This document shows positions 7,898-35,171 of a DNA stretch of 35,171 bases, piece by piece; positions within the stretch are counted from its first letter, which is position 1, and each line of letters begins with the position of its first letter. Below the pieces are notes generated by a model that ran no database searches, was not told the DNA's origin, and saw nothing but the letters and a program-made list of their open reading frames with translations. Position numbers and translations under genes: made by a program. The DNA is from a virus. The stretch lies in IMG/VR virus record IMGVR_UViG_3300023118_000021, positions 1 to 35,171 of that record; one strand, 5' to 3'.

Positions 7898-8623
7898 TTA
7901 CCGCGAGCGGCCGGTCAGCTTCGCGGCCTGGGCCTGGCTCGGGGTCAGGGCTCGCTTGCTTTTGCGGTCCTCGCCGTTGCGGTCCCCGTCGCCGGCGACG
8001 GACTTCCGACGAACGGTCTTCTTGGCGAAGAATGACGGGTACTTCTTGCGGATGCGGTCGACTTCCTGGTCAAGCCCCTCGACGTTCCCGTCGTCGTCGA
8101 GGTCGAGGTCGTCGAGCTTGACGAAGGCCGCCAGGTCGGCGGCCTGGTCTTTCGGGACGCCAGCGTCAATGAACGCGGCCCGGGCCTCGACGCGCTTGAT
8201 ACGGTCGTTGGCCTTGGCGGTGACTTCGCGCTCGACCTCGCCACGGATGGCGTCGGCGTCGGGTGCGTCACTATCGTCGCCCTTCGCCTTGGTCTTCGGC
8301 TTCGGGGTGGCGCCGCGCTTGGCGAGCTCAGCCTCGGCGGCGCGGCGCGCCTTGCGGTGGCGACTTGCCGAGCCGTTCGCGCCTTCGAGCTGCGCACGCG
8401 TCTTGCGTAGTTCGGCCTTGAGCTCGTCGTCGGTCAGGTCGGCAAGGTCGTCCTCGTCGTCATCTTCCTCGTCGTCGTCCTCGCCCTCGTCATCTTCCTC
8501 GTCGTCGTCATCCTCATCGCCACCGCCCTGGGATTCGACCTTCTTGGCGAACGTCGCGATGCCGGGCCGGGCCCAGTAGGGGAGCGCGAACTTGTATCGG
8601 TTGTCGAGGCTCATGTCGTACAT
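7898..8623 (-). CDS. Capsid scaffolding protein
   Basis: A 241-aa protein upstream of the major capsid gene. After a short N-terminus it has a very acidic Asp/Glu run (~37-60), a helical coiled-coil-like region and then 'AAFIDAGVPKDQAADLAAFV', 'DDLDLDDDGNVEGLDQEVD' and 'KYPSFFA', a pattern typical of Gp20-like phage scaffolds. The C-terminus is basic, as expected for the part that binds capsid subunits. ATG 8623 is preferred over an ATG three codons downstream because of the GAAAGGAA site upstream. Confidence 0.85.
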   Translation of the reverse strand: MYDMSLDNRYKFALPYWARPGIATFAKKVESQGGGDEDDDDEEDDEGEDDDEEDDDEDDLADLTDDELKAELRKTRAQLEGANGSASRHRKARRAAEAELAKRGATPKPKTKAKGDDSDAPDADAIRGEVEREVTAKANDRIKRVEARAAFIDAGVPKDQAADLAAFVKLDDLDLDDDGNVEGLDQEVDRIRKKYPSFFAKKTVRRKSVAGDGDRNGEDRKSKRALTPSQAQAAKLTGRSR

Positions 8624-8647
8624 AGTGCGGGTGTTTCCTTTCGGGGG

Positions 8648-9475
8648 TTAGAGGGTCGGACGAGTCGAATAGACAGTGTCGGTACCCTTTGCCATCCTGA
8701 GTGCCGTGGCGATGCCAGTGGCGTCAAGTTTCTGCGCGTTGTCCGGCGAGTCGGCGAGCATAAGATAGTTGGCACTCAGCGATTCCGCCTGTCGCTTGTT
8801 AAGGTAGATGACCTGTCGAGGGTCGTCGATGTCGAGCCCGTAGTTGATAGCGACGAACACGTCGGGCGCGTCGTCCGCCTTGCTCGTGTTGCGGAAGAGT
8901 CGCCACTGGCGAGACTCACGGCGCACCGCGTCCCTCGTCGTCGTCGAGTCGGCGTTAACGACCTGTTTGACGATGGTGCGAAGTTCGTCGAGGGTTGCCA
9001 TGTCGAAACCATCCTTATCTGGTGCGGGGGTAATCGGGGTGGAGTTGCCGCCCGATGGGGCGGTGTAGCTGGTGATGATCGGGTAGCTGGCGAAGTTGGC
9101 AGGTTGAATGTGCCACGGTTCGCCGGCAACGCCGTTGACCTGGATGCCGGCACGCTCGAGCGCGGAAAGGGTGGCGCTTCCCCACTCGAGCAGGTCGTCG
9201 CCGACGCCCCGCTGATGCGAGCGCGGGCCCGAGTCGGGGTTGCTCGCCGACGAGAATCCGGGAAGGTGGTTACGGTACCCGTTCCACAGATAGACCCCGT
9301 CGGCGTACGAGCGCCAAGCGGCGAGGTAGCGACCGTTCGGCGCCCGTGTCGAGCCCATGAGAATCGGGCGGCCCCGATACGTGTTCGCGAGCGTGAGCTT
9401 CGCCAGCATGTCGGGGTGCGTGAGCAGATGAGGCTGCCACGGAATCGGCACGAGGACGGGGGTCATGCGCGTCAT
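8648..9475 (-). CDS. Endolysin, M15-family peptidase (VanY-like)
   Basis: A 275-aa protein. The N-terminal domain carries the M15 zinc-peptidase signature: His87 and Asp94 in 'SHQRGVGDDLLEWG', then Glu119 and His122 in 'GEPWHIQP', preceded by 'AWRSYADGVYLWNGYR'. Such enzymes cut peptide stems or cross-bridges of peptidoglycan. After a Pro/Thr linker (~130-150) comes a ~125-residue domain of the type attached to actinophage lysins, perhaps for wall binding. The place, between the MuF-like head gene and the scaffold, is far from the membrane genes at the end of the late region. A GTG at 9502 is an alternative start; ATG 9475 was chosen as the first with a plausible site (GGTGG). Confidence 0.85.
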   Translation of the reverse strand: MTRMTPVLVPIPWQPHLLTHPDMLAKLTLANTYRGRPILMGSTRAPNGRYLAAWRSYADGVYLWNGYRNHLPGFSSASNPDSGPRSHQRGVGDDLLEWGSATLSALERAGIQVNGVAGEPWHIQPANFASYPIITSYTAPSGGNSTPITPAPDKDGFDMATLDELRTIVKQVVNADSTTTRDAVRRESRQWRLFRNTSKADDAPDVFVAINYGLDIDDPRQVIYLNKRQAESLSANYLMLADSPDNAQKLDATGIATALRMAKGTDTVYSTRPTL

Positions 9476-9505
9476 GCTACCACCCGCGTATTGACTGACC
9501 ACTAG

Positions 9506-12178: not shown

Positions 12179-12445
12179 TCAGAGCGGCAGGAAGGGCAGC
12201 GGTATCGCGTGCCGACGATGGCAGCTATCACAATTGGGTCGAAGCGTGCCGGCGTTGACGTGATACTCCGCGAATCGCTTGTGCAAGTCGCAGAACAGCT
12301 CGACGAAACCACACGCCCCGCACCGAATCGACCAGGCCGCCGGCGCCTCGCATACCTCTACTGCGCACGGCAGTTCCTGGTCGATGGACGCGAACAGCTT
12401 GCGCAGTTGCTCGCTTCGGCTCGGCGTTTCCGTCGTGGTGCTCAT
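12179..12445 (-). CDS. Small Cys/His zinc-binding-type protein
   Basis: An 88-aa protein starting at ATG 12445 in an ATGA overlap with the preceding gene. It has paired Cys/His motifs: 'CAVEVCEAPAAWSIRCGACG', 'CDLHKRFAEYH' and 'CDSCHRRH', enough ligands for two zinc sites. Small proteins like this are common between the terminase and portal genes of actinophages, but no function is known to me. It could be a DNA-binding accessory factor. Confidence 0.7.
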   Translation of the reverse strand: MSTTTETPSRSEQLRKLFASIDQELPCAVEVCEAPAAWSIRCGACGFVELFCDLHKRFAEYHVNAGTLRPNCDSCHRRHAIPLPFLPL

Positions 12446-13026
12446 GGCCGGAACGGGGTGAGGCACTGGGGGGTTGCTTCGCTGACCGGCATCGAGAAGC
12501 ACTCGGCGGGGAGGCATGCCGTGTCCCCGCTCTCGTCATGGCCGGTCGCCTGACTGCCCGCGGGGCACGTCGTCTGACCGCCACCGGACGGAGCGACGGT
12601 ACTGCCGCCAGTCGCGGTGCGCTTCGTCGGCGCCTTGGCGGCGTTCGCGGCCTGTTCCGCGGCAACGCGGGCAGCCTCGGCAGCGGCAGCCTGTTCGGCA
12701 GCGATGCGCGCGGCCTCGGCCTGGCGGTCGGCTTCGGCCTTCGCCACGGCGGCCTGGTAGTCGACCTCGTGCTGCGCGGCGATGCGGGCATCCTCGGCAG
12801 CCTCGGCCTCGGCGAGCTCGTCGGCGGCGGTCTCGAAACGCACCTGATAGGCGCGCTCTTCGGCGCGCTGTTCGGCGGCAACGCGCTCGTTGTTCGCGTG
12901 AATCGCGGCACTGGTCCCGGCCGCGGCAGCCACCCCGAGCGAGAGGGCGAGCACGATGGCGATGCGGCGGCGGTAGTCGTGGGGGCCGTGCTGGCGGCCG
13001 GCGAGGATTTCGGCTGGTGTTCTCAT
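12442..13026 (-). CDS. Membrane-anchored Ala-rich coiled-coil protein
   Basis: A 194-aa protein. A positively charged start (~1-23, ending 'DYRRR') precedes one membrane helix 'IAIVLALSLGVAAAAGTSAA', so the rest should lie outside the membrane. Then comes a long Ala/Glu/Arg coiled coil (~45-130), a Thr/Gly/Ser linker and a C-terminus with four cysteines ('CPAGSQATGHDESGDTACLP', 'ECFSMPVSEATPQCL') that may form disulfides. ATG 13026 begins seven bases after a strong operator-bearing promoter, implying a leaderless mRNA. Its own promoter inside the late region and its envelope location suggest a host-interaction gene, for example exclusion or envelope modification; this is inference. Confidence 0.75.
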   Translation of the reverse strand: MRTPAEILAGRQHGPHDYRRRIAIVLALSLGVAAAAGTSAAIHANNERVAAEQRAEERAYQVRFETAADELAEAEAAEDARIAAQHEVDYQAAVAKAEADRQAEAARIAAEQAAAAEAARVAAEQAANAAKAPTKRTATGGSTVAPSGGGQTTCPAGSQATGHDESGDTACLPAECFSMPVSEATPQCLTPFRP

Positions 13027-13063
13027 GCGCCTAAACCTAGTGGCTGGCAACTAGGTTTGTCAA
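13026..13063 (-). promoter_or_regulatory. Operator promoter A (leftward, leaderless)
   Basis: Minus strand: -35 TTGACA (13063-13058), 18-base spacer, -10 TAGGTT (13039-13034), seven bases, ATG 13026. The spacer holds the dyad CTAGT-8-ACTAG (13037-13054), extended to 9-bp arms AAACCTAGT/ACTAGGTTT (13033-13058). No ribosome site precedes the ATG, so the transcript should be leaderless. Confidence 0.8.
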
Positions 13064-15690: not shown

Positions 15691-16100
15691 GGCGTGGATT
15701 CTAGCGCTTCGGGGAACATGATACGGGCAGCGGCGAGTGAGGCGAATTGGTGACCGGTGCACCCGTCGTGCTTCACGATGCAATGCACGCAGTAGACCGC
15801 ACCCTCGCAAGCGACGTGCGTGGCCTTGATTGCAATGCCCTTGCCGCACGAAGCGCACGACCAGCGCCGTTGACTGCCGTTACTCTCGACGTTGCACTCG
15901 GGCCGTTCGGCGCGAATGGCGTTCAACTCGGCGGCTCGCGCGTCCGCTCGAGTCGCGTATCGCTCGACGGCGTATCGGTCATGCCTCGACCACCACGCCG
16001 CATTCTTTCGATGGCTCGCACGCCGCGCTTCGGGGTGATCGGTAATACCAACGTAGAGCAAGTGGTCGCCCTGCCAGTAGCGGTAGAGGATGGTGGTCAA
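15687..16100 (-). CDS. GIY-YIG-type nuclease with C-terminal zinc finger
   Basis: A 137-aa protein from TTG 16100, which overlaps the previous stop (TTGA); there is no other usable start. 'ILYRYWQGDHLLYVGITDHP' with a following 'RRASHRKNAAWWSRHDRYAV' and 'AELNAIRAERPECNV' matches the compact GIY-YIG nuclease layout (Tyr pair, Arg, late Glu, Asn). After it come 'CASCGKGIAIKATHVACEG' and 'CVHC', a treble-clef-like zinc site. Nucleases beside terminase genes often assist packaging; a homing role is also possible but there is no interrupted gene nearby. Confidence 0.75.
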   Translation of the reverse strand: MTTILYRYWQGDHLLYVGITDHPEARRASHRKNAAWWSRHDRYAVERYATRADARAAELNAIRAERPECNVESNGSQRRWSCASCGKGIAIKATHVACEGAVYCVHCIVKHDGCTGHQFASLAAARIMFPEALESTP

Positions 16101-16675
16101 TCGACGAGCACCGCCTTCGCGGCGGTGATAGCCATGAGGTGCCACGACGCCCCATCGAAGACGCGGGCGGGGCGCGCGGTGAGCGACTTGAGGGTCTGCC
16201 CGGCGAGGCCGCGCGTCGTCCACTGGGCACGCAGTACGAGCACGCCGCTCCGCGCGATGCCGACCTCGAAGGTGTGCCCGCATCCGCGGCCCGCCACCTC
16301 GAACCCCTGGGCCTCGCCCCATCCCCACAAGAGGCCGGCGGCGTTCGGCAGCTCGTCCCGCTCGAGCCGGACCCAGGGCCAAGGGTGCTTGGTCACGAGG
16401 TCGTAGTCGGGGGGCGGGGGCGCCCAGCGTGCGGCGCCGGCGGCGGCCATCGCTTCGCGTGCGTACTCGGCCGCCTCGGTCTGGGCGTGGCGCGGGGTGG
16501 GCGGGTAGACGCCTATGGGTAGCTGATTGCCGCGCTCGTAGTGCGGCCCGTCTTTCTGCTCTTGCGCGTCGGCGGCCGTCCATACCGTGCGACGACCGGG
16601 CGCGGACAGCCGCTTGCGCCATCGCTTGAGGAAGGCGCGGTGTTCCTCGGGGGTGCGCGTGAACTTGGCAGCCAT
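16097..16675 (-). CDS. First gene of late region, unknown function
   Basis: A 192-aa protein. ATG 16675 is chosen because it lies seven bases after the -10 of operator promoter B, the same leaderless layout as at 13026; an in-frame upstream start at 16699 would fall inside the operator. The N-terminus is basic and helical ('RTPEEHRAFLKRWRKRL'), the middle Pro-rich ('RWAPPPPDYDLVTKHPWPWV'), and the C-terminus beta-rich. No family recognised. As the promoter-proximal gene with an operator it may be expressed earlier than the structural genes. Confidence 0.7.
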   Translation of the reverse strand: MAAKFTRTPEEHRAFLKRWRKRLSAPGRRTVWTAADAQEQKDGPHYERGNQLPIGVYPPTPRHAQTEAAEYAREAMAAAGAARWAPPPPDYDLVTKHPWPWVRLERDELPNAAGLLWGWGEAQGFEVAGRGCGHTFEVGIARSGVLVLRAQWTTRGLAGQTLKSLTARPARVFDGASWHLMAITAAKAVLVD

Positions 16676-16703
16676 GCCTTCTAGCTTAGTGGCTGACAAC
16701 TAA
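16675..16703 (-). promoter_or_regulatory. Operator promoter B (leftward, leaderless)
   Basis: Minus strand -10 TAAGCT (16688-16683), seven bases, ATG 16675. The dyad TTAGT-8-ACTAA (16686-16703) sits in the position where promoter A has its operator, with the same centre GGCTGACA. The -35 is poor, so activity may need an activator or be weak. Confidence 0.65.
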
Positions 16704-17235: not shown

Positions 17236-17271
17236 TTGCGCTCCGCCGATTCGGCAACTAGGTTTATCCCG
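17236..17271 (+). promoter_or_regulatory. Operator half-site promoter C (leaderless)
   Basis: -35 TTGCGC (17236-17241), 17-base spacer, -10 TAGGTT (17259-17264), six bases, GTG 17271. The 14 bases up to the -10 equal the right half of operator E (TCGGCAACTAGGTT), but the left half is missing, so regulation may differ from the full-dyad promoters. Confidence 0.6.
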
Positions 17272-17952: not shown

Positions 17953-18290
17953 CCGAGTTGCGCAGACCTGAATCCCTCGACGATGCGGAGGCCGAGCGCC
18001 GCGCCGCCATTGCCGCGCTCTTTCGTGCCAACGAGCACCTCGCAGAGGCGCGGGCGAACGCCATCGAAGCCCGCCGAGCAGCTGCCTATTACTCACACTG
18101 GTACCAGCAGCTAGTGCGAAAAACCTTCCCGATGCCGGACGATATGTGCGTGTGCGGTCACCCTCGCTCTGAGCACAACATGCCTGACCACCCCGACTAC
18201 GACCCATACCTCGTCACCTCGGCGTGTTTCGCCCAACTCGCGGGGCGCAACGATTTCGACGAGTGCCGCAAGTTCGAGCCGAAAGCATGA
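17949..18290 (+). CDS. Early Cys/His protein with N-terminal coiled coil
   Basis: A 113-aa protein from GTG 17949. Residues ~10-55 form a charged helix with an Ala/Glu/Arg heptad pattern; then 'CVCGHPRSEHNMPDHPDYD' and later 'CFAQLAGRNDFDECRKF' provide Cys and His for a zinc site. The 'CxCGHxxxxH...C..F' pattern recurs in small actinophage proteins of unknown role. Directly upstream of the replication protein and overlapping its start (ATGA), so probably co-expressed with it. Confidence 0.7.
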   Translation: MTELRRPESLDDAEAERRAAIAALFRANEHLAEARANAIEARRAAAYYSHWYQQLVRKTFPMPDDMCVCGHPRSEHNMPDHPDYDPYLVTSACFAQLAGRNDFDECRKFEPKA

Positions 18291-20806
18291 CCCCCGGCAA
18301 GGTCACCCGCGTCGAAGACAAGCCGGTCCCCTCCCCCGACAACACGATGACCGTGGCGCTCTCGCTCGCGAAGCAAGGGTGGCCGGTATTCCCGGTGGCG
18401 CTCGTGCCCGTGACGAAGACCGCCGAGGATGGCACCGTCACGAAGGCAATGGACAAGCGCCCCCTCGTGCAGTGGCTCGAAGGTGCGACGACCGACCTCG
18501 AGCAAGTGGCGACGTGGTGGGGCTCGAAGTATGCGAACGCCTGGGTCGGCGTCCATGCCGCCCGTGCCGGCATCGTGGTCGTCGACCTCGACCTCGACAA
18601 GGGTGACGGCGATGGCGCCGTGAACCTCAAGGCGGGCAAGTTCGAGCTGCCGAAGACGCTGCACTACGCCACCCGCTCCGGCGGCACGCATCACGTCTAC
18701 AAGGCGCCGAAGGATCGCACGCTCACCATCGGCCGCGACCACCCGGTCAAGGCCGTCGACATCCGCGCCGGCAACGGCCTCATGGTCTATTACGGCCCGG
18801 TGCTCACCGACTCCCCCGACCTCGCCAAGGCGCCCGACTGGGCGCTCATCGACGGCGTGGTCAAGCCTCGCGAGGCGGACGGCGACGCGGGCCGCTGGCT
18901 CGCCCGTGCCGGCGGTGGCAAGTACGACGGCGACCTCAAGCGTCTGGTGCGGAAGACCCCCTGGAAAGACCTCAAGCACGAGCCGATGCTCGAGGCGGTG
19001 TCGGAGATAATCAAGCGCGGCAGCGAACCGGGTGCCGCGCGTGCGTTCACCGAGGCGCGGGCCGCGTACGTGAAGGACCGGCCCGACCGGGAGCGCGACT
19101 GGGATAACGCCGCCGCCGGCTCAATCGGTCGCCATGGTCTCCCGCCGGTCACGCTCGATCTGCCGAAGGTCGAGCGCAAGGTGCTCGCCGAGCGCAACGC
19201 CCCCGAGGCGCGCGAGGCGAGGGAGCTCGAACGGAAGAAGGAGTTTCGGGTCTCGAAGCTCGAGCAGCGTCGAGCCCTCCCCGCGTCCGAGCCCGACGTC
19301 GGCAACCGTGACCTGACCGATGCGGCCCTCGCGGAAGAACTCGCCGCGGGGCTCGAGCGGAAGTGGGCGAACGTGCCCGGTGTCGGGTTGCTCAAGTACA
19401 ACGGCATCATCTGGGAACCTGTCGACGAGGCGCTACTCATCGAGGCCGTGCGCAAGCGCGTCCGCGTCATCCGCGCCGAAGAGACCAAGGCCGCCATCTT
19501 GCGCGGCGACAAGAAGCGGGAGGACGAGGCCCGCGGTATCGAGTCCCGCAACCGTGTCGTCGCCATCACCCGATTCGCCGCCGGCATGCTGCTCGAGCTG
19601 GCCCCGAAACTCGACGCCGACCCCGACCTGCTCAACTGCCCGAACGGCGTCGTCGACCTGCGCACCGGGAAGCTCCGCAAACGGCGCCACGACGACTACT
19701 TCACGAAGGTCACCGGCTGCGACTACATCCCAGGAGCCAAGTCGAGAGACTGGACCCTGGCCATGATGGCGCTGCCGAAGTCCGTCGGTCGGTGGCTACA
19801 AGTACGCTTCGGGCAGGGGGCGAGTGGTCGCATCCCCGCCGACAAGGCGGTCCCCTTCCTGACAGGTGGCGGTGACAACGGCAAGTCGGTCCTCGTGGGA
19901 GGCATCCGCAACGCCCTCGGCACGTACGCCGTGACCGTCCCTGAGCGCCTACTGCTCGGCAACGACAACGACCACCCGACCGACATCATGACCCTCGAGG
20001 GCGCCCGCCTGGCCCTGTTCGAGGAACTGCCGAAAGGCGGTCGGCTCAACGTCAACCGCCTCAAGCTGCTCAGCGGCACCAACCGACTGAGCGGCCGGCG
20101 GATGCGGCAGGACTTCCGCGAGTTCAACGCGACCCACATGCTCGCCGGGGCGACGAACAACCTGCCGCTCATCACCGATGTCGATGACGCGACCTGGGCC
20201 CGTGTTGCCCCGGTGCGGTTCCCGTATAAGTTCGTCCCCCCGCGCAATGACGAGACCGGGCACCCCGGCCCACGGAAGGGCACCAACGAGCGCGCCGGAG
20301 AGCCGGGTCTGCGCGACCGGCTCGGCGAGGTCTGGTCGCCGCCTGACCCCGCGGTCCTGGCCTGGCTCGTCGAGGGTGCCGTTGAGTCGTACCGTTCGGG
20401 GATGCCGCACCTTCCGAAGCGGATAACCGAGGCGCTCGAGGACTGGCGAGGCGAGGCCGACCCGGTGCTCGGCTTCGTGCGCGACCGCCTCGAGCTCGCC
20501 GACGACTACGCCATCGCGGCGACCGACCTCTACGCCGAGTTCGGCACCTACCTCGAAGGGCGCGGACAGCCGAAGTGGAGCGACCAGCTCATCGCCTCGG
20601 CGTTCGCCGGCCACTCGTCACTGCCCGGCGTCTCCAAACGACAGGTCATGTTCGGTAAGAAAATGAACCTGTCCCGGCCGGTCTTTACTCTCAAGGCGAT
20701 ACCGCCCCGCTCGATGTCTTGGGTCGGTGTGCGGTTCAAGAGCGGCGAGGATGTCGAGCCGATGGATGCCGAGTTTGAGGAACTAGCGAAGCGGGTGTCG
20801 AAGTGA
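18287..20806 (+). CDS. PrimPol - SF3 helicase replication protein
   Basis: An 839-aa protein, ATG 18287 overlapping the previous stop. The N-terminal primase-polymerase domain has catalytic acids in 'VVVDLDLDKG' (Asp100/102), the 'SGGTHHVYK' motif (His135) and 'VDIRAGNGLMVYYGP'. The C-terminal superfamily 3 helicase has Walker A 'TGGGDNGKSV' (Lys533), Walker B 'LALFEELPK' (Glu579/580) and sensor 'MLAGATNNLPL'. It combines priming and unwinding, as in phage P4-like and many actinophage replicons. No DNA polymerase gene is visible, so host polymerase is presumably recruited. Confidence 0.93.
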   Translation: MTPGKVTRVEDKPVPSPDNTMTVALSLAKQGWPVFPVALVPVTKTAEDGTVTKAMDKRPLVQWLEGATTDLEQVATWWGSKYANAWVGVHAARAGIVVVDLDLDKGDGDGAVNLKAGKFELPKTLHYATRSGGTHHVYKAPKDRTLTIGRDHPVKAVDIRAGNGLMVYYGPVLTDSPDLAKAPDWALIDGVVKPREADGDAGRWLARAGGGKYDGDLKRLVRKTPWKDLKHEPMLEAVSEIIKRGSEPGAARAFTEARAAYVKDRPDRERDWDNAAAGSIGRHGLPPVTLDLPKVERKVLAERNAPEAREARELERKKEFRVSKLEQRRALPASEPDVGNRDLTDAALAEELAAGLERKWANVPGVGLLKYNGIIWEPVDEALLIEAVRKRVRVIRAEETKAAILRGDKKREDEARGIESRNRVVAITRFAAGMLLELAPKLDADPDLLNCPNGVVDLRTGKLRKRRHDDYFTKVTGCDYIPGAKSRDWTLAMMALPKSVGRWLQVRFGQGASGRIPADKAVPFLTGGGDNGKSVLVGGIRNALGTYAVTVPERLLLGNDNDHPTDIMTLEGARLALFEELPKGGRLNVNRLKLLSGTNRLSGRRMRQDFREFNATHMLAGATNNLPLITDVDDATWARVAPVRFPYKFVPPRNDETGHPGPRKGTNERAGEPGLRDRLGEVWSPPDPAVLAWLVEGAVESYRSGMPHLPKRITEALEDWRGEADPVLGFVRDRLELADDYAIAATDLYAEFGTYLEGRGQPKWSDQLIASAFAGHSSLPGVSKRQVMFGKKMNLSRPVFTLKAIPPRSMSWVGVRFKSGEDVEPMDAEFEELAKRVSK

Positions 20807-21588: not shown

Positions 21589-21873
21589 TCACTCGGTGAC
21601 GCCCTGCTCAATGAGCTCATCACGCACGGCGGCGAGCAGTACGAGCAGCGCATCGCACGCGGCCAGGGTCTTCGGGAAGTAGACGCTCGAGTATGGCTCG
21701 AGGGTGAGTGAGACCTCGGTACGGTTGACCTTGGCGATGGCACGCTTGCGGCTAATGTGGGCCATGCCGTCGAGCGGAGCCTTGAGGGTGGTATTGCGCT
21801 TGGCCGGGGTGATCTTCGTGTCAACCTCGACAGACGGGGCATCGGGCACGATACCCCGAACACCGCCGGCCAT
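21589..21873 (-). CDS. Second gene of regulator operon, unknown
   Basis: A 94-aa protein whose ATG shares one base with the stop of the ribbon-helix-helix gene (TGATG). It contains 'VEVDTKITPAKRNTTLKAPL', 'HISRKRAIAKVNRTEVSLTL' and a helical C-terminus 'TLAACDALLVLLAAVRDELI'. No family recognised. Strict pairing with the DNA-binding gene suggests a cofactor, antagonist or second subunit; a toxin-antitoxin arrangement is possible, with the ribbon-helix-helix protein as antitoxin, but the sequence does not resemble known toxins. Confidence 0.65.
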   Translation of the reverse strand: MAGGVRGIVPDAPSVEVDTKITPAKRNTTLKAPLDGMAHISRKRAIAKVNRTEVSLTLEPYSSVYFPKTLAACDALLVLLAAVRDELIEQGVTE

Positions 21874-22097
21874 CACTTCACCTCGCGCGCGTCGGTCTCG
21901 AGGTTGAACACCTCGAGCTCGGTGATGCGGCCACCGTCAAGCGCGTCAGCGAGCAAGACGCCGAGCTGCAAGAGCCGGCGCGCGGCCGCGCTCTTCGAGG
22001 TGTCGTCGCGCGCGGCGGCGTCCGCCTCGATGCGGTCATTGAGCTCGTCGCCGATCTGGCATACGAGCTGATTCGGATAGAGGATGGGGCGGCCCAT
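21873..22097 (-). CDS. Ribbon-helix-helix DNA-binding regulator
   Basis: A 74-aa protein. ATG 22097 is chosen for its AAAGG site; an upstream in-frame start at 22145 lacks support. 'NQLVCQIGDELNDRIEADAA' then 'SKSAAARRLLQLGVLLADAL' is the ribbon-helix-helix pattern: a strand that inserts in the major groove and two dimerising helices. It lies between two operator copies (promoters D and E), so autoregulation and control of the other operator promoters is the natural hypothesis. No other transcription regulator was found in the genome. Confidence 0.75.
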   Translation of the reverse strand: MGRPILYPNQLVCQIGDELNDRIEADAAARDDTSKSAAARRLLQLGVLLADALDGGRITELEVFNLETDAREVK

Positions 22098-22192
22098 GAG
22101 GTGCCTTTCGTCGAGGGTCAGTAGGTGAGTGGCGCCGCAACCCATCAGGCTTGCGCTCCCTCGAAGGAATCACGCGGCGCCACTCGATCACT

Positions 22193-22221
22193 AGGTTAGT
22201 GGTCAGCAACTAGATAAGCAA
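22193..22221 (-). promoter_or_regulatory. Operator promoter D (leftward, for RHH operon)
   Basis: Minus strand -35 TTGCTT (22221-22216), 17-base spacer, -10 TAACCT (22198-22193). Operator dyad TTAGT-8-ACTAG at 22196-22213. The transcript would start near 22187 and carry a ~90-base leader before the regulator ATG. Confidence 0.65.
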
Positions 22222-22244
22222 TGCCGCCGCCCCTTTCGGGGGGA

Positions 22245-22274
22245 TTGACTCGGCTAGTGGTCGGCAACTAGGTT
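22245..22274 (+). promoter_or_regulatory. Operator promoter E (rightward, surface protein)
   Basis: -35 TTGACT (22245-22250), 18-base spacer, -10 TAGGTT (22269-22274). Operator CTAGT-8-ACTAG at 22254-22271. Start expected near 22281, with a GAAGGGA ribosome site before ATG 22314. Divergent from promoter D with 23 bases between the -35 boxes, including a CCCC-TTTC-GGGG mini hairpin. Confidence 0.78.
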
Positions 22275-22313
22275 AGACCCGAACGCATCACTCGAACCCC
22301 CGAAGGGAACATC

Positions 22314-23477
22314 ATGCGCACCACTATCAAGGCCGGCCTCGCCGCCGCGGCCGTCGTCGGGCTCATCGCCCTCGGCGCCCCGCTTACCGCGAGTGCCGAC
22401 GAAACCGCCACGACCGAAGAGGTGACATCATCGACAAGCACACCGACCACGGACGCCCCGTCGACTTCGCCAGCCGAAGCCCCCGGGTCAGATGGTTCGG
22501 CGGGACTCACTACCCCGGCCACCGAGCCAAGCTCGTCACCGGAAGCGACCCCGACACCTTCGACGATCACCCCCTCGACCGATACCTCGACCTCGTCGAC
22601 GACGCCGCCCGTGACGCCGCCGACGCGTACTGTAGAAATCGTCTGGGGGATGCCGAACGGCGGGACGCCTGACCACGTCACGTGGCCGCAGACGTACAGC
22701 CCCGACGGCACCACCGCACCGGGCACCTGTTCCCAGATCGACACCTACCTCGCGACCGAGGCGCCGCGCTTCTACGCCGACGGCAAGCTCGAGCAGGGCG
22801 AGGACTACGAGTCGAAGACCCAGCGCGGCGCCATCTCGTGGCGATTCGTCTGCGTCCCGCCCGTTGTCGTCACCCCGACCGGACCGGTGACCATCACGGC
22901 GCCGACCCTGGTGCCGACCTCGCCGACGTGCGACGCCGACGGTTCGCTGCCCTTCCTGGGCAACCCCGCCGCGCAGAACCCGAACGGGTACGAGTTCCCC
23001 GGTCAGGGCTTCCGCGTCTACATCGCGCCGGCGTTCACCGGCCCCGGCACTTACGTCGCGACCATTCAGAAGGTCGGCCCCGGTTTCGACCCGGCCTTCC
23101 CGAAGGGCACCAAGGTCGTCGGCGCGACGAGCCAGACGTTGACCGTGCTGCCGAAGACCGGCACGCAGTCGACGGATGCCAGCGCCCCGTGCTACGTCAC
23201 ACCCCCGGTCGAGCCCCCCGTCGTCGTGCCGCCCGTGACGGTCCCCGAGGCGCCCGTCACACCGGCCGTCACGCCGGTCGTCGAGACCGCTCCCGTGATC
23301 GCCGAGAAAGTTGCAACGGTCACGCCTGACGCGCTCGCCTACACGGGGACCGGGCAGCTTCGCGTACTGCTCTTCGTGATGATCGGTCTGCTGCTCGTTG
23401 GGTCGGGCGTCGTCGCGGTCGTCGCGCCGATCATGCGGAAGCCGAACCCGCGCTACCGCCGCACGATGGTCGACTAG
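22314..23477 (+). CDS. Secreted, sortase-anchored surface protein
   Basis: A 387-aa protein. Residues 1-29 are a clear signal peptide with Ala-x-Ala end ('LIALGAPLTASADE'). A Ser/Thr/Pro stalk (~30-105) is followed by a folded region with four cysteines (~107-290), a Pro/Val-rich stretch, and a C-terminal sorting signal: LAYTG (341-345), hydrophobic helix (~349-371), then 'MRKPNPRYRR'. LAxTG is the motif used by class E sortases of high-GC Gram-positives. A second motif LPKTG (279-283) lies internally without an adjacent membrane helix. The product should be fixed to the host wall, perhaps blocking receptors or superinfecting phage. It has its own operator promoter and terminator. Confidence 0.85.
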   Translation: MRTTIKAGLAAAAVVGLIALGAPLTASADETATTEEVTSSTSTPTTDAPSTSPAEAPGSDGSAGLTTPATEPSSSPEATPTPSTITPSTDTSTSSTTPPVTPPTRTVEIVWGMPNGGTPDHVTWPQTYSPDGTTAPGTCSQIDTYLATEAPRFYADGKLEQGEDYESKTQRGAISWRFVCVPPVVVTPTGPVTITAPTLVPTSPTCDADGSLPFLGNPAAQNPNGYEFPGQGFRVYIAPAFTGPGTYVATIQKVGPGFDPAFPKGTKVVGATSQTLTVLPKTGTQSTDASAPCYVTPPVEPPVVVPPVTVPEAPVTPAVTPVVETAPVIAEKVATVTPDALAYTGTGQLRVLLFVMIGLLLVGSGVVAVVAPIMRKPNPRYRRTMVD

Positions 23478-23492
23478 CTAGACCCCCACAAC

Positions 23493-23541
23493 GGAACCGC
23501 CGACCGGCTGGCATTGCGCCCCGGTCGGCGGTTTCTTTGTG
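23493..23541 (+). terminator. Intrinsic terminator after surface protein gene
   Basis: Arms 23493-23507 and 23521-23535 pair over 15 bp (core AACCGCCGACCGG / CCGGTCGGCGGTT) with a 13-base loop, followed by TTTCTTTG. A textbook Rho-independent terminator that isolates the surface gene from promoter F a few bases on. Confidence 0.9.
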
Positions 23542-23545
23542 CGCC

Positions 23546-23613
23546 TTGACTTACCTAGTTGTCAGCCACTAAGTTTGATATGTCAGCCACCGCAACCCCG
23601 AAAGGTCAGCCAC
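23546..23613 (+). promoter_or_regulatory. Operator promoter F with phased 9-mer repeats
   Basis: -35 TTGACT (23546-23551), 18-base spacer, -10 TAAGTT (23570-23575), operator CTAGT-8-ACTAA (23555-23572). The 9-mer GTCAGCCAC occurs three times at 23561, 23582 and 23605, about two helical turns apart; the last copy abuts ATG 23615. The segment is a near-duplicate of promoter G. Confidence 0.8.
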
Positions 23614-23614
23614 C

Positions 23615-23860
23615 ATGTCGAACATTATTCCGAACCGCAATTACCGTATCGCCGTAGACACGTTGGCCGATGGCCGCGTGAAGGCCAAGGGTCACGGTCG
23701 CAAGGTGAATCAGCAGACGTTTCCCGTCGGCACGACGCACGAAGAGGCGGCCCGTACCGTCGCCCTCAAGATCGAGGGCGAGAGATTCGCCGAGGTCCGC
23801 AATTACGTCACGTTCGCCAACAAGTCCGATTGGGACGTGTTTGTGACGGTCGGCGCATGA
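23615..23860 (+). CDS. Small early protein, unknown
   Basis: An 81-aa protein, ATG 23615 behind GAAAGG. Beta-rich with Lys/His-rich turn: 'NYRIAVDTLADGRVKAKGHG', then 'TTHEEAARTVALKIEGERFA'. The alternation of strand, helix and strand suggests a compact single domain. First gene of the operon from promoter F; its stop overlaps the next start. No family recognised. Confidence 0.68.
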   Translation: MSNIIPNRNYRIAVDTLADGRVKAKGHGRKVNQQTFPVGTTHEEAARTVALKIEGERFAEVRNYVTFANKSDWDVFVTVGA

Positions 23861-24264
23861 CCGCCACCGATGACGGGCTCGACCCGTTCCGCTCGAAGAT
23901 GCGCGAATCCATCGCCGCCGAGTATCGCGCGCTCGGGCTCGACTCTCCGAGTCAGTCGCTTCGCTGTACTTGCACCGATCGACGACTAGGAGAGAGGCAC
24001 GCTCGACGGTGCCCCTATGTGAAAGCGCGTCGCAAGGCATGGCTTATCGATAACCCGCGCCGGTTCGCCGTTCGCCGACTTCCCGCCACGAGCTGGCCGG
24101 GGCTCGGCGAATACTGGCTAGACCGTAACCCGTTCATCATTCAGGACCGCGAGCGCCAAGGGTGGCTCGGTCGAGCGCCGTCACTCGACGCGGCCTTCGC
24201 TGCCATCGACGAGATACTTCGCGCCGAGGCGCACCCGAGGGGAGTTGATCTGCCGTGGGATTGA
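23857..24264 (+). CDS. Early protein with Cys cluster, unknown
   Basis: A 135-aa protein, ATG 23857 over the preceding TGA. A helical N-terminus is followed by 'CTCTDRRLGERHARRCPYVK', a Cys/Cys/His/Cys group that could bind zinc, and a C-terminal part with 'GLGEYWLDRNPFIIQDRERQ' and an Ala-rich helix. Basic and probably nucleic-acid-associated. No family recognised. Overlaps the next small gene by ten bases. Confidence 0.65.
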   Translation: MTATDDGLDPFRSKMRESIAAEYRALGLDSPSQSLRCTCTDRRLGERHARRCPYVKARRKAWLIDNPRRFAVRRLPATSWPGLGEYWLDRNPFIIQDRERQGWLGRAPSLDAAFAAIDEILRAEAHPRGVDLPWD

Positions 24265-24413
24265 CCCCCGAAGAGACCATCGAGAGCGCAGCTCGCGCAC
24301 TCTGGTATCGAGACATGACCGAGTACGGCATTGACGTGACCAGCGACCCCTGGGAAGAAGCGTCAGAGACCGCCAAAGACGTCTACCGAAAGGCGGTAAC
24401 CGCCCGTGGCTAA
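24255..24413 (+). CDS. Small acidic early protein, unknown
   Basis: A 52-aa reading frame from GTG 24255, overlapping the previous gene by ten bases and the next by eight. 'GLTPEETIESAARALWYRDM' and 'DPWEEASETAKDVYRKAV' predict two amphipathic helices. Tight packing in the operon and the coherent helical pattern support it as a gene. Function unknown. Confidence 0.58.
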   Translation: MGLTPEETIESAARALWYRDMTEYGIDVTSDPWEEASETAKDVYRKAVTARG

Positions 24414-24990
24414 GTGGTCGAAGGTCGTCAAGGGTGACCGCATCGAGCTGCGCGGCAAGACGTTCGACGTCGTCAAGATCAAGGCCAAGGGCAAGAGTGC
24501 GAAGGTAACCGTTCGCGGCAATGGCTCGGTCTTCGAGTCGAAGGTCGCGCTCGCCGACAAGGTCAAGATCGTCACGGCGCCGTTGCGAGATAAGGCCGGC
24601 ACGCAGACCCGTTGGGCGAAGCCGAGCGAGGTCACCGTCAAGGCGCCGAAAGAACCGAAGGGACTCGGCAAGGGAAACCCGAAGGCGACGAAGCCACCGG
24701 CCGACCCGAGCGGCGACCCCTGGGAAACGAAGCGGGACAAGGTCGAGAGGAAGCTCGACGACCTGCTCAGCGCGCGACTGGTGGGCGAGACCAAGAACGA
24801 GGCCGAGGGCTACTACGTACCGCCGGCCGACGAGCAGACCGTCGCCGCGCACCTCGCACTTTTCCACGGCATCGACCCGAGCGAGTACGCCGCCTCGACG
24901 TGGCTCGCGCTGCACGACGCCGAGCACGCCGGCGCGCTCAAGGGCCAGGCGCTCACGGTCAATCACTGGCACACGGAGACCCGGCCATGA
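24406..24990 (+). CDS. Early protein with Lys-rich linker, unknown
   Basis: A 194-aa protein, GTG 24406. N-terminal ~70 residues are strand-rich ('KGDRIELRGKTFDVVKIKAK', 'KVTVRGNGSVFESKVA'), reminiscent of a small SH3-like or KOW-type barrel; a Lys/Pro linker (~75-105) leads to a helical C-terminal domain with several His residues ('LALHDAEHAGALKGQ', 'NHWHTET'). DNA or RNA binding is plausible for the first domain. No family recognised. Confidence 0.68.
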   Translation: MAKWSKVVKGDRIELRGKTFDVVKIKAKGKSAKVTVRGNGSVFESKVALADKVKIVTAPLRDKAGTQTRWAKPSEVTVKAPKEPKGLGKGNPKATKPPADPSGDPWETKRDKVERKLDDLLSARLVGETKNEAEGYYVPPADEQTVAAHLALFHGIDPSEYAASTWLALHDAEHAGALKGQALTVNHWHTETRP

Positions 24991-25283
24991 CCGACGAAAC
25001 CAGCGCGGCATTCGCCGCGGCGGCATCGTGGCGACGAGAGGTACGGGCCGAGTTCGAGGCGGTGCGCGAGGCGGCGTATGAGATGGCCGAGACCGAGACC
25101 AACGGGCGCATGCTCAACCGTCGCGGCCTCGACGCCGGCGTCGACCCGTGGTCGCTGTTCACTCACAACCGCGCCTACGCCCACGCCTACGCGAGCGAGG
25201 AACTGCTCGACCATTGGCAGACCTACCGGCGCCCGACGTTCCTCGATTACGAGGCCCAGACTTTTCCCGGTCTCGCCTCTTGA
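24987..25283 (+). CDS. Early helical protein, unknown
   Basis: A 98-aa protein, ATG 24987 in an ATGA overlap. Helical first half ('SWRREVRAEFEAVREAAYEM'), then 'NRRGLDAGVDPWSLFTHNRA'. The stop TGA lies inside the -35 box TTGACT of promoter G, so the operon ends exactly where the next begins. No terminator separates them. Function unknown. Confidence 0.65.
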   Translation: MTDETSAAFAAAASWRREVRAEFEAVREAAYEMAETETNGRMLNRRGLDAGVDPWSLFTHNRAYAHAYASEELLDHWQTYRRPTFLDYEAQTFPGLAS

Positions 25284-25334
25284 CTTACCTAGTTGTCAGC
25301 CACTAGGTTTAGATGAGTCAGCCACCGCAACCCC
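25280..25334 (+). promoter_or_regulatory. Operator promoter G (duplicate of F)
   Basis: -35 TTGACT (25280-25285), 18-base spacer, -10 TAGGTT (25304-25309), operator CTAGT-8-ACTAG (25289-25306). The 26 bases from the -35 to mid -10 are identical to promoter F, and an 18-base stretch of the leader (25317-25334) equals 23582-23599. Two copies of GTCAGCCAC lie 22 bases apart. Confidence 0.82.
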
Positions 25335-25952: not shown

Positions 25953-27950
25953 ATGGGAAAGAAAGACGCCGCACTCCACGGCCTGAGTAAGAAAGAGCGC
26001 AAGGCGCTCGAAGAGAAAGAGGCCGCCATCGCCGCCGAGCTGGACGCCCGTGCGGCGAAGCCTGTCAAGCCGAAGAAGGGCAAGGGGAAGAACAAGTCCC
26101 CCGACCTGACCACGCTGAAGCGCAAGGCGCTCAAGCAGCTCATCGCCGACAAGACCAACGGCGAGTTGAGGGACCGGGCCAAGGCCGAGCTCAAGCGGCG
26201 CGACGCCGAGGGCGACGCATCCGAGGCCCGCTCACTCGCGATCATGCGAGAACACGAAGACGCGAAGGCAGCCAAGGCCATCGCCAAGAAAGAGGCGGCC
26301 GTCAAGGTCAAGCCCGCGAAGAAGGGCAGGTCGACCGAGGCCGACAAGGCCGCGGACATCGTCACCGATGCGGCCGAGGTCAAGGGCGAAACCCACTCCC
26401 CCGCCGCGATCATCGAGGCGGCCGACAAGGTGCTCGCCGACCCGAACGCCAGCGAGGGCGCGCTCAAGTCCGCGCGCACCGCACGGAATAAGGCGCTCGC
26501 GTCGATGACCGACGACGAGCTCAAGGCCCGCGTGCAGAGCAAGAACGCCAACCGCGCCGAGCTCGAGGCCACCGCCAATAGCGTCGACCGTGACGACGAG
26601 AGTGCCGTCGCCGCATACAACGCCGCGCTCGCGGCCATCGGTGGCGGCAAGTTCCTCACGAGCAATGCCGAGAAAGCGGCCCGCGATGCGGAGATTCGCG
26701 GGGGCACCGACCATGCCGCAATCGCGGATGCGAACATGGACGCGAACCCGACTTACGCCAAGCCGAAGAAGGACAAGGCTGCCAAGGTGGCTGAGGCCGT
26801 CGTCGCCGACATGCTGGCGGTCGAGGCCCCTGCCCAGGCGGTCGAGGAAGTCGAGACCGAGACCGGCCGCATCTTCGCTGCCGGCGAGTCGGTCGACGAG
26901 GCCACGGGCGAAATCATTGAGGCCCGGGTCGACCCCGCCGACGAGCGCGGTTTCGCGCTACCGAGCGAGGGCGGCCGCCCCGACTTCGAGCAGAACGGGA
27001 ACGGGCAGTACAAGATTAAGCGGCTGAGCGACGGCAAGATCGTCGGCTACACCCGCGCCACCACGTTCATTTCGACCAACGAGGACCGCACGCAACTCGA
27101 GAAGTGGAAGCTGCGCGTACTGCTCGAGGGCATCGCGATCAACGACAGCCCCGACGAGCACGGCCGCATCTCCGACCCGGTCATGGCCAAGGTCTCCGAC
27201 CTCATCCACCGCCGCGACGTGGCCATCGCCAAGGCGCGGAAGGCTGACCGCAAGGGCAAGCTCGTCCCCGGTCAGTTCGGCACTATCACCGAGGCGGCAT
27301 GGTCCGAGTTCAAGAAGGCGCTCAACACCCTCGCCGAAGACCTGCTCGAGCTCGGCGGCGCACACGTCAAGGCCGCCAAGGGTACCGAGCTGCACGAGCT
27401 CACCGAGCTCTACGACCGCGACGGCATCGACGCCGTGGGCGACCTCGTGACCGCGGGGAAGATCACACACGCCGACCTCGCCGACGTCGAGGCGTACGCC
27501 CGTGCCATCGAGGCGGCGGGTATCAAGATCATCCCCGAGTTCATTGAGCAGCCCATCGTTGTCGAAGACCTCAAGGTTGCCGGTCGCCTCGACCGCGTCG
27601 TCATGGTCAGGCTCCCCGGTTCGGCTCGGGCCATCCGGTGCATCTTCGACGTGAAGTCCGGTCGCATCGACCTCGGCGCCGGGAAGATTGCCCAGCAGCT
27701 CAGCATGTACGCCCGCGGCGAGACCTACAATCTCGAGACCCACGAGCGCGGCAAGCACGGGGCCAGCCTCACCAAGGGCCTCGTTCTCCACCTCGTGCCC
27801 GGTTCCGCCGAAGCACACATCTACGTCGTTGACCTCGGAACCGGACGTATCGGTAACGACCTCTCGACCAAGGTGCGCGCCTTCCGCAACGACGGCAAGC
27901 GGGCAATCGACATGACCGTCGACCTCGCGGCGCCGAAGGCGGCCGACTAG
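25953..27950 (+). CDS. RecB/Cas4-like PD-(D/E)XK nuclease with long Lys-rich N-terminus
   Basis: A 665-aa protein. The first ~330 residues are Ala/Lys/Glu-rich, largely helical and probably extended. The C-terminal half carries a RecB/Cas4-type nuclease: His481 in 'KGTELHELTELYD', Asp547 in 'GRLDRVVMV', Asp566 and Lys568 in 'IFDVKSGRID', then 'IAQQLSMYAR'. Such enzymes degrade or process DNA ends during recombination. The long charged N-terminus is far larger than the nuclease needs and may bind DNA or partners. A structured RNA region and a possible ssDNA-binding gene follow, making a recombination module. Confidence 0.82.
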   Translation: MGKKDAALHGLSKKERKALEEKEAAIAAELDARAAKPVKPKKGKGKNKSPDLTTLKRKALKQLIADKTNGELRDRAKAELKRRDAEGDASEARSLAIMREHEDAKAAKAIAKKEAAVKVKPAKKGRSTEADKAADIVTDAAEVKGETHSPAAIIEAADKVLADPNASEGALKSARTARNKALASMTDDELKARVQSKNANRAELEATANSVDRDDESAVAAYNAALAAIGGGKFLTSNAEKAARDAEIRGGTDHAAIADANMDANPTYAKPKKDKAAKVAEAVVADMLAVEAPAQAVEEVETETGRIFAAGESVDEATGEIIEARVDPADERGFALPSEGGRPDFEQNGNGQYKIKRLSDGKIVGYTRATTFISTNEDRTQLEKWKLRVLLEGIAINDSPDEHGRISDPVMAKVSDLIHRRDVAIAKARKADRKGKLVPGQFGTITEAAWSEFKKALNTLAEDLLELGGAHVKAAKGTELHELTELYDRDGIDAVGDLVTAGKITHADLADVEAYARAIEAAGIKIIPEFIEQPIVVEDLKVAGRLDRVVMVRLPGSARAIRCIFDVKSGRIDLGAGKIAQQLSMYARGETYNLETHERGKHGASLTKGLVLHLVPGSAEAHIYVVDLGTGRIGNDLSTKVRAFRNDGKRAIDMTVDLAAPKAAD

Positions 27951-34594: not shown

Positions 34595-35144
34595 TCAGTA
34601 GAAGGCGGGCGCGGTGTCGATGTCGACGCGCGGCGTGCCAGTGACGGGCCCGAGGGCAATGAATTGAATGGTTCGCACGCCCTTGGCGGGCACCGTCCAC
34701 CATTCGGGGGAGGGAAGGAATCGACCCGCCGGTGCGGTCCCGTTGATAAAGGCGGTCATGCTGGCGGTGTCGAGCACGATGGTCGTACCCGAGGTGACCG
34801 GACCGAGGTAGGTGAGCCGTTCGCCCGTGTCGACATTGACAAGCGCGAAACCGTCAAGCATCTGCCCGCCGCTCACGGTGTAGATGGACACGGTTTCAGT
34901 GTTGCCTGAGTTGGTCACCAGGACGCGACCGTCGACCGGCAGCGCGCCGAAGTCGAGCGGATAGACGAGAGGGAAAGGCAGCCCTCCACCGGGCACGGCG
35001 AGGGTCGTCCCTACGCGAGCCGTGGCGCCGTACCTCTTCGGGTCGGCAGCCTCGGCGTCGAAGGTGTACTTGAATTGCTGGTGAATCGTCCACGGGAACT
35101 TGATCGACTTGACGGCGATCTGGCGACTGGTCGCTCGAAGGTCG
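34595..35144 (-). CDS. Distal tail (Dit-like) protein, C-terminal part
   Basis: Continuation of the gene entering from base 442. In this frame the codons run without a stop through 35144-35010 and end at TGA 34595-34597. The C-terminal ~140 residues contain short beta-strand-like segments ('VLVTNSGNTETVSIYTVSGG') and a conserved-looking 'SPEWWTVPAKGVRTIQF', typical of the C-terminal jelly-roll domain of distal tail proteins. A GTG at 34996 could be mistaken for a start, but the upstream frame is open and matches the other end of the window. Seventeen bases separate it from the next tail gene. Confidence 0.7.
35011..35144. repeat. Direct terminal repeat, right copy
   Basis: Second copy of bases 1-134. 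Identity stops at 35144, where the sequence switches to an inverted copy of upstream bases. It should be collapsed with the left copy when the genome is closed. Confidence 0.93.
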
Positions 35145-35171
35145 CCAGATCGCCGTCAAGTCGATCAAGTT
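35097..35171. repeat. Fold-back inverted repeat at window end
   Basis: Bases 35097-35127 are followed after a 13-base spacer (35128-35140) by their perfect 31-base reverse complement at 35141-35171, where the window ends. The left copy of the terminal repeat shows normal sequence after base 134, so the inverted part is not in the internal version. A template-switch or amplification chimera at a contig end is the simplest explanation; a true hairpin end is less likely because the coding frame continues smoothly in the other copy. Confidence 0.9.

Follow-up and report, generated by a model that had tools for sequence, protein, structure and literature searches.

Small ribbon-helix-helix (RHH) proteins that repress their own synthesis are already known from phage P22, plasmids, and archaeal viruses. 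P22 Arc and Mnt and plasmid CopG are autorepressors of this kind, each with an operator that overlaps a promoter and with one or two promoters under its control, and pairs of RHH dimers bind to repeats, either inverted or direct. Cro of the temperate phage lambda, which has a helix-turn-helix fold, is a small autorepressor that damps early promoters in lytic growth, and the repressor of mycobacteriophage L5 is a single protein with many short asymmetric sites (stoperators), mostly outside promoters and oriented one way with respect to transcription, at which it stops elongation. Viral cases of RHH binding to repeats have been described (PMC5569661). Lytic actinophages commonly carry repeated motifs close to promoters: Microbacterium phage clusters EC, EF, EG, and EI carry repeated intergenic motifs, many near gene starts (PMC7302621), and Cluster O mycobacteriophages carry 17-bp dyads (PMC4351075). 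The published surveys leave the role of such repeats open, report no established binder for them, and find no repressor genes in most clusters (PMC7302621, PMC4351075). Here, we analyzed a 35,171-nucleotide stretch of viral DNA (IMG/VR record IMGVR_UViG_3300023118_000021, positions 1 to 35,171; the window), in which one small self-controlling DNA-binding protein appears to run most of the main promoters of a virus of soil bacteria. Six dyads in this window are likely the operators of an autoregulated phage RHH repressor with a fast-diverging specificity, and they would place most of the major promoters of the host sigma-A type under its control.

The initial annotation listed six copies of the dyad YTAGT-N8-ACTAR (A, B, D, E, F, and G), and all six are present where it had placed them (Table 1). 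In 300 dinucleotide shuffles of the window, exact matches to the pattern averaged 0.0033 (maximum 1); the six real copies are all confined to the approximately 2.7 kb of non-coding DNA. Allowing one mismatch revealed no further dyads in the window, with 0.34 expected. This count is genome-wide, as the window is an essentially closed siphovirus genome of ~35.0 kb, despite its IMG/VR class of linear. Bases 1-134 recur almost exactly at the right end (35011-35171, one mismatch seen), where the copy is followed by a short fold-back artefact, and the minor tail gene is intact once the 134-bp end overlap is counted a single time. The dyads have 7-bp arms, CTAGTTG and CCACTAG, whose symmetry is broken by one mismatch. 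Each is therefore asymmetric: in a single orientation (the sequences in Table 1 for A, B, D, F, and G, and CTAGTTGCCGACCACTAG for E), every site reads YTAGTTG-N4-CCACTAR, with one TTG arm and one CCA (=TGG) arm. E alone is turned against its promoter; the other five sites point the same way as theirs. A seventh candidate, H (9488-9505, minus strand), between the minor-capsid gene and the gene in the endolysin position, scored 13.9, which is in the chance range (maximum of 25 simulated genomes, 14.6), and we do not claim it.

All six dyads stand in one fixed register: each runs 3 bp into a TAnnnT -10 box, so that its end coincides with the first half of the box. They had been described as lying between the -35 and -10 boxes; they do occupy the spacer, but because their last 3 bp run into the -10 box, they are not wholly inside it. 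The count of six promoters also needs qualification. Five have a recognizable -35 box (TTGACN or TTGCTT) and a spacer of 18 bp (A, E, F, and G) or 17 bp (D), but B has TAAGCT in the -10 position and no recognizable -35 box upstream. The further promoter C carries only the right half of the dyad, as had been noted. Among the consensus promoters in intergenic space, five of seven have a dyad. A dyad over the -10 box of a promoter with a good -35 box and a 17-18 bp spacer would most naturally be read as a site of direct repression. We rejected a MerR-type spacer-binding activator, as the spacers are not over-long (19-20 bp) and no MerR domain was detected in the proteins scanned, and an L5-type stoperator system, as the sites are dyads and all lie on promoters.

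Site B could instead point to a dual regulator: the same RHH protein would repress promoters with a strong -35 box and activate weak-consensus ones in an early-to-late switch. B has an operator and a -10 box with no -35 box, and AvtR, an RHH protein of an archaeal virus, acts as both repressor and activator (PMC5569661). However, B has the same register as the other sites, over the -10 box, which is an unusual place for an activator, and the late genes could equally start elsewhere. We consider a dual role possible but rather unlikely. Direct repression with autoregulation would be the best reading of these promoters, with activation at B a possible addition.

The candidate regulator is encoded next to D and E. 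The initial annotation had its gene flanked by these two sites; both do adjoin it, but both are upstream, between it and the divergent gene that starts at 22314. Site D lies in the promoter of the RHH gene itself, as expected of an autoregulated phage repressor. The closest named relatives of the window are the Microbacterium phages Wyvern, Isperia, and OscarSo (terminase identity 57-59%), and IMG/VR contigs are also related. A three-sequence profile (window, G001, and OscarSo gp47, which its depositors called an RHH protein) detected homologues of the regulator in all 12 near-complete relatives. Such a profile was needed because the family diverges too fast for a single query: the window protein alone returned no matches from viral contigs or phage records. 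At levels below the Pfam curated cut-off, RHH_1 matches 4 of 13 family members (best E 0.0017) and independently picks the same gene in G004 (E 6e-5), G016, and G010. The Arc-like repressor profile phrog_3431 matches three members (E 4e-4). In a predicted monomer model of the window protein (mean pLDDT 75.5), an extended N-terminus with no assigned strand is followed by helices at 17-29 and 35-53, which in the model sit where the RHH fold expects them. The gene is transcribed opposite to the primase/polymerase gene wherever the latter is located nearby in relatives.

An RHH gene beside its own operators also recalls toxin-antitoxin loci, as RHH antitoxins commonly autoregulate and the gene overlaps the next gene downstream (21589-21873) by one base in the window. 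The protein could then be an antitoxin paired with that gene, and D and E ordinary antitoxin operators. However, the RHH gene is alone in relatives such as G001, OscarSo, and Wyvern, with the next gene on the opposite strand; the downstream protein has no Pfam match; and sites are present at four further promoters. We hold this pairing to be extremely improbable, and a type II antitoxin was rejected since no conserved partner was seen beside the RHH gene in such relatives.

Several further features of the regulator gene were observed. In Wyvern (L005:29003-29419, plus strand) and Isperia (L018:27854-28282, plus strand), it is unannotated, having been missed because it lies opposite annotated genes 43 and 42, respectively. 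The OscarSo (L019:29432-29821), Wyvern, and Isperia proteins are extended at the C-terminus, and the additional region may represent a second RHH-like unit. In the window, the RHH leader (22126-22185, minus strand) contains a 12-bp perfect inverted repeat, GAGTGGCGCCGC...GCGGCGCCACTC, predicted to form a strong hairpin (-37 kcal/mol, z -2.1), whereas the gene seems leaderless in most relatives.

We then compared promoters across the relatives. TTGAC-(16-19)-TAnnnT promoters are few per genome, and most have a genome-specific repeat in the spacer: CCATTGGYCRRCCAC in G001 and G004, GAGTA-N6-TACT in Wyvern and Isperia, GGCTACtatGTAGCC in OscarSo, the direct repeat GCTGTTAGtcgGCTGTTAG in G010, GTGRCGCGYCAC in G011 and G013, and CCTAACGAGT in G016. 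These sites recur at the RHH promoter, in the gap between g30 and the exonuclease gene, immediately after terL, and in many cases at the early/late divergence. In most relatives, the site at the RHH promoter recurs as the genome-specific sequence at other promoters. A scan of the relatives with a matrix built from the six window sites, a check suggested in the initial annotation, gave its best matches at syntenic promoters in G001 (27535), G004 (27322, 29583), OscarSo (29402, 3500, 27991), Wyvern (3950, 26898), and Isperia (26315, 27823). An automatic seed-and-refine matrix worked in the window but strayed into coding sequence in Wyvern, G013, and G015, and for these genomes we relied on promoters and synteny to place the sites; of the relatives, G015 is the least convincing. 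A DNA-pattern scan of IMG/VR for CTAGTTGNCNNCCACTAG returned 11 contigs, none with a protein match to window genes, and these were set aside as chance matches. The relatives appear to keep the wiring of the network while the operator sequence differs between genomes.

The operators change in step across promoters of the same genome. The best 14-bp match between the exonuclease-side promoter and the RHH promoter averaged 11.6 within genomes and 9.3 between genomes, with a permutation p of about 5e-6 (11 genomes), or 1.5e-5 to 1e-4 with near-duplicates dropped, the lower figure being that for two dropped, values to be read in light of the facts that sites in several genomes were picked by eye beforehand and that the genomes are related. 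This comparison used promoter spacers only, because whole upstream regions are confounded by the shared ribosome-binding sites of neighboring genes. The genomes L140 and L141, which were not used in discovery, have the same pattern, with CTACTAGCGCGCCA/CTAGTAGCGCGCTA and CCTAACACCCGACC/CCTAACATACGACC. In L141, a more distant phage contig, a weak RHH match was also seen (8597-8869, E 0.027), and the direct-repeat sites CCTAAC-N3-CGACCTAATAG occur both in the promoter of that gene and in another one.

Co-variation within genomes favors a binder encoded by the phage over one supplied by the host. The dyads could still be bound by a host regulator or another phage protein, with the RHH gene a regulated bystander; the assignment of the RHH protein as binder comes from sequence, and many small phage genes have no assigned function. 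Yet the site sequence varies between related phages and is common within each, as for a co-evolving phage-encoded protein. Moreover, the RHH gene is the only gene with an indication of a DNA-binding fold that always adjoins a site, and the small open reading frames scanned yielded no further regulator domain. We judge a different binder improbable. Still less credible is the view that the dyads derive from a promoter cassette that moved or was duplicated, or that they serve replication or packaging, a role considered for other actinophage repeats. The leader common to F and G suggests that one was copied, and Cluster O mycobacteriophages have >30 dyads, mostly outside promoters (PMC4351075). 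However, A, B, D, and E share little with F and G beyond the dyad and promoter boxes, every site is on a promoter in fixed register, and relatives keep the positions while the sequence changes. The conserved gene and the co-varying sites support the RHH protein as the regulator, as originally proposed.

Some observations weigh against an RHH repressor acting at all six sites. The window protein alone has no significant Pfam, PHROG, or PDB-sequence match, and the sequence-profile signature of the RHH (MetJ/Arc/CopG) superfamily is found for the family and not for the window member by itself. A fold search with the model yielded no significant match (best E 3.4 in PDB and 0.37 among viral structures), with RHH proteins such as FitA, TraM, and CopG among the weak ones. 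In OscarSo and Wyvern, the RHH-promoter site alone matches the exonuclease-side promoter no better than random DNA from that genome does. Finally, simple repression is least certain at B, given its missing -35 box.

Table 1. Promoter sites and genes of the proposed RHH regulon in the window
Feature	Coordinates	Strand	Description
RHH regulator gene	21873..22097	-	74 aa; start 22097; GAAAGG ribosome-binding site
Site D, CTAGTTGCTGACCACTAA	22196..22213	-	RHH gene promoter TTGCTT-17-TAACCT, 22193-22221; equivalent site upstream of RHH gene in relatives
Site E, CTAGTGGTCGGCAACTAG	22254..22271	+	Promoter TTGACT-18-TAGGTT, 22245-22274, of surface-protein gene
Site F, CTAGTTGTCAGCCACTAA	23555..23572	+	Promoter TTGACT-18-TAAGTT, 23546-23575; similarly placed promoter with site at G001 25913
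Site G, CTAGTTGTCAGCCACTAG	25289..25306	+	Promoter TTGACT-18-TAGGTT, 25280-25309, upstream of exonuclease operon
Site A, CTAGTTGCCAGCCACTAG	13037..13054	-	Promoter TTGACA-18-TAGGTT, 13034-13063, directly after terL
Site B, TTAGTTGTCAGCCACTAA	16686..16703	-	Overlaps -10 TAAGCT (16683-16688) of first late gene, 16097-16675
Promoter C	17236..17264	+	TTGCGC-17-TAGGTT; right half-site only; early rightward primase/polymerase operon
Secreted/surface protein gene	22314..23477	+	Driven by E; signal peptide, Pro/Thr-rich region, C-terminal membrane segment
DNA primase/polymerase-helicase	18287..20806	+	phrog_1156 E 2e-80; early operon downstream of C; adjoins RHH gene
Exonuclease	25953..27950	+	Downstream of G; phrog_466 E 2e-54

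Structural genes and genes for primase/polymerase, exonuclease, and endonuclease VII were identified in the genome. Sites equivalent to G lie between g30 and the exonuclease gene in G001, G004, OscarSo, Wyvern, Isperia, G010, G011, and G016, and on the g30 side in G013 and G017. Equivalents of A are present in Isperia, G004, G010, G011, G013, and G017, as well as OscarSo (3500) and Wyvern (3950). Candidate equivalents of B were found in the early/late divergent region of G001 (18337), G006, G010, G011, G013, and G016, and the counterpart of promoter C has no dyad in G001 (18519) and has one in G004 (35020). At A and B, the -10 box is about 7 nt before the ATG, so leaderless transcripts are likely; A would drive the probably leaderless membrane-protein gene 12442-13026. 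F and G share a transcribed leader, GTCAGCCACCGCAACCCC (23582-23599 and 25317-25334), beginning at about the expected transcription start, and in Wyvern, Isperia, OscarSo, and G010 the exonuclease-side promoter is likewise followed by GTCAGC. The surface protein driven by E has no Pfam or PHROG match, and a segment of its gene has ~75-81% DNA identity to genes of about 100 other Microbacterium phages.

From these data, we infer binding, repression, timing, and start sites as follows. Two RHH dimers, or one dimer pair, would bind the two arms CTAGTKG. The operator extends over the spacer into the first half of the -10 box, so binding at an otherwise good promoter is predicted to exclude host sigma-A RNA polymerase and repress that promoter. 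Under this control would be the RHH gene itself (D), the gene for the surface protein (E), the early region on its exonuclease/recombination side (F and G), a membrane-protein gene located within the late region (A), and, at B, the first late gene. Promoter C of the early primase operon would be exempt and able to fire at once. In such a Cro-type switch, the RHH protein would build up early, turn itself off, and damp or time the other promoters.

These results tie a small protein, which was overlooked in two of the three relatives with annotations, to a repeated motif by conserved position and co-variation. They also provide a natural series of regulator/operator pairs, with several specificities on one network, for studying joint change of a regulator and its sites. 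Because OscarSo, Wyvern, and Isperia exist as phage isolates, the claim can be tested directly. We found no integrase in the annotations of these three phages, and a terL scan of bacterial genomes yielded one closely related phage-size contig from a metagenome-assembled genome and no close integrated prophage. In a clade without a recognizable lysogeny module, in which repressor-operator specificity diversifies on a fixed network, a resident or earlier phage could shut down only newcomers of the same operator class. Such immunity groups without lysogeny are a tentative idea that we regard as more doubtful than probable. In the open-licence literature, we encountered no report of an RHH regulon shared across a clade of lytic-looking actinophages.

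Among known systems, the archaeal-virus RHH regulators SvtR (SIRV1) and AvtR (AFV6) bind archaeal promoters, often upstream of core elements, and can polymerize along DNA, whereas the window has single dyads on the spacer and -10 box of bacterial-type promoters. The repeats of clusters EC, EF, EG, and EI and of Cluster O are likewise short repeated elements in lytic actinophages, but no cognate protein is established there. The Cluster EG phage Hyperion has perfect dyads, those viewed being near start codons in a layout different from that of the window, and a scan of 37 kb with the RHH profile gave no match. The L5 repressor resembles the proposed regulator as one phage protein with many short genome-wide sites; unlike stoperators, the sites here are dyads on promoters. 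Lambda Cro is similar in the role proposed, but differs in its fold and in the temperate lifestyle of its phage. The window protein resembles P22 Arc and Mnt and plasmid CopG in its small size and in an operator over the promoter, and it would share their RHH fold and autorepression. Unlike them, it would act at five to six promoters spread over 12 kb, in a phage without a recognizable integrase.

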